A DNA stretch of 42,797 bases from positions 1 to 42,797 of the forward strand of contig JAICQP010000005.1 of assembly GCA_025937815.1 (NCBI GenBank), read 5' to 3'. The stretch's first letter is position 1; every line of letters starts with the position of its first letter. Under the pieces are notes generated by a model, which saw only the letters and a list, made by a program, of their open reading frames with translations, was not told the DNA's origin and searched no databases. The position numbers and the translations under genes were made by a program. The stretch comes from Gemmatimonadota bacterium (lineage in GTDB: Bacteria; Gemmatimonadota; Gemmatimonadetes; JACCXV01; JAHWKZ01). This document shows positions 39,169-42,343 of this stretch, piece by piece.

Positions 39169-39197
39169 TTGACGGGATCGGGAAATCCGGATAGGAT
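39169..39197 (+). promoter_or_regulatory. Sigma70-like promoter upstream of TonB-dependent receptor/chelatase operon
   Basis: TTGACG-N17-TAGGAT. Confidence 0.6.
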
Positions 39198-39206
39198 GCG
39201 TCCACT

Positions 39207-39233
39207 ATTCGTTGAGACTCGTTCTCAACGAAT
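39207..39233. promoter_or_regulatory. 27-bp palindromic operator candidate (Fur-family-like)
   Basis: ATTCGTTGAGA-CTCGT-TCTCAACGAAT: perfect 11-bp inverted arms around 5 nt; core TGAGACTCGTTCTCA resembles a 7-1-7 Fur-type box; sits just after the -10 element. Confidence 0.65.
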
Positions 39234-39281
39234 CGGAATCCTTCCTTTTCTACAATCATTCCCGGACGCGCAGAGATCCCC

Positions 39282-41420
39282 ATGCCCAGACACGCACTCT
39301 TCTCGATCCCGCTCTTCGCCGCCCTCGCGACCCCTCTGGCCGCGCAGGAGGCCGACATCCAGCCGGACACCGTCCTCATGGAGAGGATCCAGGCGGTCGC
39401 CACGCGGACGGAGCGGGCGACGTTCGACGTCCCCGTGCCGGTCGACGTGCTCGACGGCGATCGGATCGACCGGGTCCAGTCGGACAACGTCGTCGCCGAT
39501 CTCTTTCCGCTGGAGGCCGGCCTCGAGGTCGAGGGCGAGGGGCCGTTCCTCGGCCTGCCCGTGCTGCGAGGCTTGAGCGGCAACCGCGTGCTCGTCCTCG
39601 TCGACGGCCAGCGGCTGAACAACAGCCGCGAGGCGATCAACTTCGGCGGCGTGCAACCGGGCCTCGTCGACGTCTCGAGCATCGCCTCGATCGAGATCGT
39701 TCGCGGTCCGGCGTCCGTCCTCTACGGTAGCGACGCGATCGGGGGCATCGTCAACATCGTGACGCGGAAACCGGAGCTTCCGGCGGAAGGGCTGTCCCTG
39801 TCCGGCTCCGCCACGACCCGCTACAGCACCGTCGACCGGCAGCGGACGGGAGCGATCGCGCTGCATGTCGGGACGCGCGCGTTGGGCATCGCAGTACGCG
39901 GCAGCGCGCGAAACGCCGCCGACTACTCCAGCGCGCTCGGCGTGGTCCCGCACTCGAGCGCCGAGACCCGGTCTGGAGCCGCCGACCTCGAATGGCGCCC
40001 CTTCGAGGATCACGGGCTGACGCTCCGGTGGTCGACGCTGCGCGGCGAAGACATCGGGGTGCCGGGATCCGGCGGAGTGTTCACCGGATTCTACCCACGC
40101 ACCGACCGCACCAAGCTCTCGCTGGGGTACGAGGGCCGCGACCTGGCCCCCTGGCTGGCGCGGCTCGACGCCCGCGTGTACGCCCAGGACCAGACCGAGG
40201 TCTTCTCCACCGTCCTCGACCTGCCGCCCATCCCCGCCGGGCCGTTCGACCTCCTGATCGACACGACGACCGAGCGGACCGGCGACGTCCGTACGGCCGG
40301 GCTCGACGTGCAGGCCGGATCCCCGGTCGCGGGCGGCCATTACCTGACGTACGGGATCGATCTCTTCCGCGACAGAGTCGACGAGCAGAGGCTCGAGGAG
40401 AGCGTGCACGTGCTCGTGCCCCGTTCCCCGGGACCTCCCGGCAGCACGGAGATTGAGACCGACGACACCCCCACGACTCCGGAGTCGAGCTACCAGGGCA
40501 TGGGCCTCTACCTTCAGGACGAGATCTCCGCGGGACGCTGGACGCTGATCCCGGGCGCGCGTCTCGACCGCTTCGACATCGAGGCCGAGGGCCTCGAGCG
40601 CGAAGAAGGCGCGGTCCCGGCGGAGGATCGCACGGAGAGCGCGCTCAGTGGAAGCATCGCCGCGCTCTTTCGCGCCGCGGACTGGCTCCACCTGACCGGC
40701 TCGGTGAGCCGCGCCTTCCGCACCCCGAACGTGATCGAGCGCTTCTTCTTCGGACCCGGATCGCAGGGCGGCCTGTCGGTCCCCAATCCCGACCTCGAGA
40801 ACGAGACGAGCGTCAACGTCGATCTGGGGTTCAAGGCGCGCGCCTCGGGCATGCGGGTCGAGGCCACGTACTTCCACAACCGGATCGACGATTTCATCAC
40901 GTTCGTGCCCGGAACGTTCATGGGCGAGTCCGAGATCGGCGGACAGCCCGTGACCACCGTGGGCAACGTCGGTGAGGCGCGGATCCGGGGACTCGAGGCC
41001 GAAGTCGAGCATCGCGGCGCATGGCTCGGCGGCACGCGGACGGCGTTCGCCGCTTTCACCTGGAACGACGGCGACGACCTGCTCGCCGACGAGCCCCTCT
41101 TCGTGCCACCGCTCAAGCTCGCGTTGGGGATCGGGTGGTCGGAGGCCTCGGGACGCGTATCGGGCCTCGTCACGGGGAGATTCGTCGACGGCCAGAGCGA
41201 GGTACCCGCGGGCTTCGAGCGGACCACCGGCTTCGCGGTCTTCGACCTGCACGCGGCAGCCGACCTGGGGGCTCTCACCGGCCGGCCGCTCGTCCTGCGG
41301 GCCGGCGTAGAGAACCTCCTCGATCGCGCCTACGAAGAGCCCTACGGCGCTGCGCTCGCGCCGGGACGGAACCTGGTCCTGTCGCTCGAAGCCGGCTTCG
41401 GCGACCGCGAGACCCGGTGA
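39282..41420 (+). CDS. TonB-dependent receptor (heme/corrinoid/siderophore-type)
   Basis: Signal peptide ending LAAQE; plug [23 protein letters not shown]...[33 protein letters not shown]; barrel boxes [10 protein letters not shown] and [18 protein letters not shown]-terminal [13 protein letters not shown]. Confidence 0.95.
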
Positions 41421-42343
41421 GCGCGCGGGAATCCTGGCGCCGGATCGCGGTTGCGGCGCTCGTTCTGCTCGGCTTCGGCGGCGCGTCGCGCGTCGACGCG
41501 CAGACGGCGCGCGAGCGGCCCGCGGCGATCGTCGTCGCGCACGGAGCAGAGGTGGAGTGGAACGATCGGGTCCGCGAGATCGCGGGACTCGCCGAGACGG
41601 GGGGCCCGGTCGAGGTCGCCTTCCTGATGGGGCCCGAAGCCGAGGCGCGGCCGTTCCAGGAGGTGGTCGCCGGTCTCGTCGCGGGCGGGGCGTCCGAGGT
41701 CGTGGTCGTGCCGCTCCTTGTGTCGAGCCACAGCGGCCACTACGACCAGCTCCGCTGGCTCGCGGGCGAGATCGATTCCCTGAGCGGGTACATGGCGCAC
41801 CATCTGGAGATGGCGGGCATCACGCGACCCGCCGATCCGGCCCGCGTCCGGCTGGCGGCCGCGCTCGACGACGCACCCGAGCTGGCGGACGTGCTCGCCG
41901 ATCGCGCCCTCGCGCTGGCCGAGTCGCCGCAGGCTCAGGCGCTGTTCCTGATCGGGCATGGACCGAACTCGGCCGAGGACAACGCGCGCTGGATGGCGAA
42001 TCTGAGGTCCGTGGCCGATCGCGTGGGACGCGTTACCGGATTCCGCGACGTGAAGCTCGGCCTCGTCCGCGACGACGCCCCGGCAGAGGTCCGCGCGGAG
42101 GCGGTGCGCGCTATCCGGGAGATGATCGCGCTGCAGCGCGAATTGACGGGGCGGCCCGTCGTCGTGGTGCCGATCCTCGTCAGCGAGGGGCGCGTGAGCC
42201 GCGAGAAGTTCCCTGCGGACCTGGAGGGGCTGGACGTCGTCTACTCCGGTGAGCCGATCCTCCCCCACCCCGCGCTCGCGCGCTGGATCGCGCGCCGCGT
42301 CGCCGACCCCGGACGGATCGAGGTGGCGGACGCGGTTCCCTGA
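41417..42343 (+). CDS. Exported CbiX/CbiK-like (sirohydrochlorin-type) chelatase family protein, two-lobed
   Basis: GTG start overlaps receptor TGA; signal peptide RRIAVAALVLLGFGGASRVDAQ; lobe 1 AAIVVAHGAEVEWN...VVVPLLVSSHSGHYDQL; lobe 2 ALFLIGHGPNSAEDNARWM...VVVVPILVSEGRVSREKF. Confidence 0.75.
   Translation: MSARESWRRIAVAALVLLGFGGASRVDAQTARERPAAIVVAHGAEVEWNDRVREIAGLAETGGPVEVAFLMGPEAEARPFQEVVAGLVAGGASEVVVVPLLVSSHSGHYDQLRWLAGEIDSLSGYMAHHLEMAGITRPADPARVRLAAALDDAPELADVLADRALALAESPQAQALFLIGHGPNSAEDNARWMANLRSVADRVGRVTGFRDVKLGLVRDDAPAEVRAEAVRAIREMIALQRELTGRPVVVVPILVSEGRVSREKFPADLEGLDVVYSGEPILPHPALARWIARRVADPGRIEVADAVP

Follow-up and report, generated by a model that had tools for sequence, protein, structure and literature searches.

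An exported CbiX/SirB-fold protein encoded behind a TonB-dependent receptor in Gemmatimonadota: a probable iron-regulated module for heme or metalloporphyrin acquisition

What does a chelatase-like protein with a signal peptide do directly behind a TonB-dependent outer-membrane receptor? The question is raised by a stretch of DNA of 42,797 nucleotides (below, the window) from a Gemmatimonadota bacterium (own genome 2.9 Mb, 94% complete), in which the genes of two such proteins overlap. Our preferred reading is that the pair is a module for acquiring heme or a metalloporphyrin under iron control: the chelatase-fold protein would receive the tetrapyrrole in the periplasm and probably strip it of iron. 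The parts of this reading differ in strength: the module being iron-regulated and serving heme or metalloporphyrin is very likely, and actual de-metallation, where catalysis is what we infer, is nearly evenly balanced, leaning slightly to doubt.

The features of the locus are listed in Table 1. The ORF boundaries reproduce the overlap of the receptor stop with a GTG start that had been described in the first-pass annotation; the start of that annotation, 39169, lies about 110 bases 5' of the receptor ATG, with the promoter region included. The palindrome of Table 1 and the evidence from HmuY and a receptor fusion in relatives were not part of that annotation. Short overlaps of the receptor and chelatase genes are found in relatives as well (loci L062, L070, L071, L079, L080, and L085). 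Elsewhere in the window, positions 28715-31195 (minus strand) encode another TonB-type outer-membrane protein, 826 aa long, whose N-terminal stretch is carboxypeptidase-regulatory-like, and positions 42349-42795 (minus strand), a fragment of a TMEM175-like potassium channel that runs off the window end.

Table 1. Features of the receptor–chelatase locus (window positions; residues numbered in the full-length protein; A1, alignment of 47 sequences).
Feature	Position	Strand	Details and basis
Perfect palindrome, 11-base arms, ATTCGTTGAGA-CTCGT-TCTCAACGAAT; Fur-box-like operator	39207..39233		Repeat search
TonB-dependent outer-membrane receptor, 712 aa	39282..41420	+	ATG 39282, TGA 41418-41420; ORF call, Pfam, NCBIfam
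GTGA overlap (4 bases), receptor stop/chelatase start	41417..41420	+	Putative translational coupling; ORF boundaries
Exported CbiX/SirB-fold protein, 308 aa	41417..42343	+	GTG 41417, TGA 42341-42343; ORF call, Pfam, homologues, model
Signal peptide, residues 1-28, predicted cleavage VDA/QT	41417..41500	+	Read by eye from the sequence; export signals conserved in homologues
His42-Gly43, lobe 1, aligned to SirB His10	41540..41545	+	Invariant in A1; profile alignment
Met71, invariant, at the position of SirB metal ligand Glu43	41627..41629	+	A1; profile alignment to SirB
His108, aligned to SirB His76	41738..41740	+	Kept in the close group and replaced by Phe in the distant (lipoprotein) group
His181-Gly182, lobe 2, invariant	41957..41962	+	A1

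Judging by its conservation, the chelatase-like gene is real, since it has homologues of nearly full length at 51–61% identity in many genera. Pfam recognizes CbiX (PF01903) in lobe 1 only of the 308-aa protein (42 bits at a cut-off of 22), and this is the sole match to the family in the genome. According to the AlphaFold model of the mature protein (pLDDT 93.5), it belongs to the class II chelatase superfamily (CbiX/CbiK/SirB/HemH) and consists of two alpha/beta lobes, in agreement with the two-lobed CbiX-like identity originally proposed for the second ORF: the nearest solved structures are SirB (E-value 5e-9), DR2241, CbiK (6e-6), periplasmic CbiKp, and ferrochelatases (8e-5). The same search revealed a resemblance to periplasmic binding proteins. 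A search of solved structures with the single protein sequence gave no match; the search with the family profile did.

Exported homologues were found in 67 out of 395 genomes of the phylum, representing 35 out of 138 genera, and fall into two groups, namely, a close group with 38–61% identity and signals of the signal peptidase I type, and a distant group with approximately 30% identity and mostly lipoprotein signals. Profile comparison unites both groups in one family over the full length, and a structure search for the distant group yields the same nearest folds as for the close group; Pfam CbiX does not recognize the two distant-group members tested. The named relatives are Gemmatimonadota MAGs. 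A search of genome contigs with the single protein returned two Gemmatimonadota loci only, and a search of plasmids returned no match.

The Sec signal peptide suggested earlier is borne out by this comparison. The N-terminus of the protein features a hydrophobic core and the VDA/QT cleavage motif, similar signal peptides head nearly all close homologues whose N-termini are intact, and lipoprotein signals prevail among the distant ones. The presence of two kinds of export signals in one family is a strong argument for action outside the cytoplasm. The sequence speaks against a cytoplasmic location, which had been named as one of the observations that would overturn the first interpretation; besides the conserved signals, a receptor fusion, described below, places a chelatase lobe in the periplasm.

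The pairing with a receptor, for which a neighborhood survey had been proposed, proved to be kept in relatives: in 26 out of 53 loci a TonB receptor lies at most 1.6 kb from the chelatase gene and on the same strand. The 749 kb examined contain 14 further receptor matches, mostly weak. In roughly half of the chelatase loci, no receptor is adjacent. In 20 loci of relatives, the chelatase and the TonB receptor share an operon with the HmuY hemophore lipoprotein (identity confirmed by Pfam PF14064 in three cases), and two gene orders are observed, HmuY–receptor–chelatase in nine loci of the close group and chelatase–HmuY–receptor in 11 loci of the distant group. At the genome level, HmuY is present in 46 out of 67 chelatase carriers vs. 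101 out of 328 non-carriers (odds ratio 4.9, p 1e-8, statistics that ignore phylogeny). The window itself contains no HmuY gene; that of the same genome is found on another contig (L106, positions 2-505, cut off at the contig end), where an ORF resembling a LAGLIDADG homing endonuclease (5459-6052) was also seen, possibly, by eye only, beside ribosomal RNA. Gemmatimonadota HmuY–receptor operons without a chelatase gene occur as well (L109, L113, L114, L115, L121, L122, and L123), and several of their genomes carry the chelatase elsewhere, alone.

Two loci show an even tighter connection. In L131 (913-3552), a signal peptide is followed, in a single in-frame ORF of 879 aa, by one chelatase lobe, the Plug domain, and the barrel. 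The lobe, at residues 29-133, scores 78 bits with the family profile; Pfam itself makes no call there. Of all relatives of the window's receptor, the receptor part of this fusion scores best (35%). The N-terminus of TonB receptors is periplasmic, and hence the L131 lobe would be placed in the periplasm beside the receptor. In L024 (12375-14435, minus strand), the gene directly behind a TonB receptor specifies an exported protein with a tandem array of more than two CbiX-like lobes.

The receptor of the window matches Pfam Plug (72 bits) and TonB_dep_Rec_b-barrel (190 bits), and its best NCBIfam model is TIGR01785 TonB-hemin, with 267.5 bits, below the cut-off of 316.85. It has only distant relatives (at most 41% identity) and lacks a histidine between the FRAP-like and NPNL-like motifs, where some heme receptors have one. 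We rejected its assignment as a HmuR orthologue, as the HmuY-linked receptors form a clade that does not include it. A general tie of chelatase carriers to the family of this receptor was also dropped (10 out of 56 genomes, about chance). The HmuY-linked receptors score slightly better with the B12 model than with the hemin one, all below cut-off, and several linked receptors have TIGR01779 TonB-B12 as their best model, which, together with the membership of the protein in the CbiX family, could point to a corrinoid or cobalt system with a BtuB-like receptor and a CbiX homologue handling cobalt or corrinoid. We regard such a system as very improbable: the linkage is to HmuY, the window's receptor has 267 bits with the hemin model vs. 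132 bits with the B12 model, and the precorrin-2 pathway is absent in most carriers (see below). The regulatory signals, which led us to drop it, point in the same direction.

A search of the window and six related loci found no cobalamin riboswitch, and an iron-type box is seen instead. The palindrome upstream of the receptor (Table 1) resembles a Fur-type box, and its conservation upstream of the related operons suggests putative membership in a Fur regulon. The 2.9 Mb genome has a single TGAGAN5TCTCA core, the one upstream of the receptor, an observation that, taken alone, is suggestive only, as about half a site is expected by chance (an estimate from base composition). The comparison with relatives is strong evidence: the core GAGAN5TCTC is present there at 24 out of 49 operon starts, with a density 223 times that found elsewhere in the DNA compared, and a box with at most four mismatches to TTGAGAATNATTCTCAA, at 39 out of 50 operon starts, chelatase-only loci included; these sites come from several families and from both groups, with closely related genomes among them not being independent. 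The usual form of the box, TGAGAATNATTCTCA, is identical to the Xanthomonas Fur box (PMC1790865). This exact form is found one to four times per genome in four out of 12 relatives, and further genomic sites adjoin genes for PepSY_TM, a periplasmic binding protein (Peripla_BP_2), an STN-receptor, and ApbE.

Taking into account the HmuY linkage, the Fur-type boxes, and the absence of a cobalamin riboswitch from the loci searched, we narrow the ligand from "heme, corrinoid or similar," as initially formulated, to heme/iron. The proposal that the pair imports a metallated tetrapyrrole is supported in this narrower form, with the reservation that the window's receptor is not orthologous to the HmuY-linked ones; in this organism, heme would presumably be the ligand.

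The metabolic context was considered with the caveat that the incompleteness of MAGs limits the weight of single absences. Uroporphyrinogen-III methyltransferase (TIGR01469) is absent in the own genome and in 40 out of 48 carriers tested; hence, no sirohydrochlorin would be formed there by the known route. This bears on the notion that the protein is a canonical cytoplasmic sirohydrochlorin chelatase standing behind a receptor by chance, for which its Pfam family name is the only argument. With two kinds of export signals, a receptor fusion, repeated linkage, and no pathway to the substrate in the own genome, this is hardly credible, and the siroheme role was dropped.

Heme oxygenase of the PF01126 family, the one family covered, has no match in 43 out of 48 carriers, the own genome included, and CobN/HmuS (PF02514) is absent in the own genome. 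Across the phylum, CobN/HmuS (a family many of whose matches may be BchH or CobN) and the chelatase are not mutually exclusive, and thus a simple replacement of HmuS by the chelatase is unsupported at this level. Ferrochelatase PF00762 is present in the own genome and in 25 out of 48 carriers; the remaining half or so may be heme auxotrophs or have another enzyme.

The invariant residues of the family (47 sequences) include His42, Trp48, Met71, Ser103, His181, Asp220, Arg226, and Gly258. In SirB, metal is coordinated by His10, Glu43, and His76 (PMC11301274). This site is incomplete here, with equivalents of both histidines, His42 and His108, kept, and Glu43 replaced by Met71. Since the latter replacement is seen throughout the family, and in the lipoprotein group the second histidine is replaced by Phe, the canonical insertion site is not intact. 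At the same time, in HmuS, Met79 and His254 hold heme where two class II chelatase-like lobes meet (PMC12583661), and the invariant Met71 and His181, located at strand ends facing the cleft, could bind heme in a similar way.

These replacements, with His and Met being classic heme ligands, are also what one would expect of a periplasmic heme carrier that has kept the fold as a tetrapyrrole-binding cleft and passes heme on whole. This is the main rival of iron removal, and the fold likeness to periplasmic binding proteins, as well as the carriers without PF00762 ferrochelatase, which may need whole heme, fit it. Nevertheless, we find it rather unlikely: the close group retains both SirB histidines, no heme ABC transporter or HmuTUV was seen in these operons, and, PF01126 being mostly absent, whole heme would not yield iron that way, yet the box implies a role in iron supply.

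The opposite direction, exchange or insertion of a metal (e.g., Mn, Co, Zn, or Fe) into an imported porphyrin, should be considered given known systems with the same logic. In Porphyromonas gingivalis, a TonB receptor, IhtA, is combined with an exported CbiK-type protein, IhtB, suspected of freeing heme iron (PMC10913741, PMC6460266). The logic of a TonB receptor with an exported chelatase-fold protein is the same there and here, but IhtB is a CbiK homologue and a lipoprotein, whereas the window protein is of the CbiX/SirB type and hardly related to it in sequence (E 0.05). ABC transporter genes belong to the iht locus as well, and Fur is reported not to control the production of IhtB, in contrast to the Fur-type box here and HmuY in relatives. 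FetB is the same protein as IhtB. It is reported to make Mn-protoporphyrin (review PMC13402209), and this precedent, the class II chelatase fold, and the conservation of two histidines favor metal insertion. As one metal-ligand glutamate is missing, heme import agrees better with the iron-type operator and the HmuY linkage, and the sequence relation to FetB is as distant as stated above, we consider insertion improbable.

Returning to iron removal as the preferred reading, the following sequence of events may be proposed. At low iron, a Fur-type repressor would leave the palindrome and free the operon, as the box and its conservation in relatives suggest. Then, the TonB receptor would bring a metallated tetrapyrrole into the periplasm, in line with its family and with HmuY in relatives, and the exported two-lobed protein would take it in the interlobe cleft lined by the invariant His42, Met71, and His181. 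There, iron would most likely be removed, leaving free porphyrin and Fe2+, the latter presumably passing to an inner-membrane transporter for ferrous iron uptake.

Other known systems share parts of this scheme. In Bacteroidota, hmuYRSTUV operons, which along with IhtA-IhtB come closest to it, encode the class I de-chelatase HmuS (PMC12583661, PMC10100974), and the full operon has been described as confined to Bacteroidetes. The combination of HmuY, a TonB receptor, and a chelatase-family protein for heme iron is common to both, but HmuS is a membrane-anchored class I (CobN-like) protein of 1469 residues, and the protein described here has a class II fold of 280 residues. With SirB/CbiX it shares the two-lobed fold and the equivalents of His10 and His76, differing in export, in the Glu43 to Met replacement, and in the lack of the sirohydrochlorin pathway in its genome. 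The periplasmic cobaltochelatase CbiKp of Desulfovibrio vulgaris (2xvx) is likewise an exported class II chelatase fold, but belongs to the CbiK family. Our literature search yielded no paper in which a TonB receptor or HmuY is paired with a CbiX-type chelatase, which does not prove that none exists.

Whether class II folds of the ferrochelatase type physiologically run in reverse to free heme iron is a long-disputed question, and iron release from heme without ring opening has recently been assigned to class I HmuS in Bacteroidota (PMC12583661). The class II protein described here comes from another phylum; it is compact, apparently soluble, and iron-regulated, with genetic ties to receptors and HmuY. 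Tentatively, and with less assurance than for de-metallation as such, it may be a dedicated periplasmic heme de-chelatase of the class II SirB/CbiX fold with the Glu-to-Met replacement, which evolved in Gemmatimonadota independently of class I HmuS and was built into a TonB receptor in one lineage. As the protein of 280 residues is compact, tied to receptors and HmuY, fused to a receptor in one case, and marked by a specific active-site change, it makes the question of class II de-chelation directly testable. The operons in relatives also extend HmuY-type heme capture beyond Bacteroidota.
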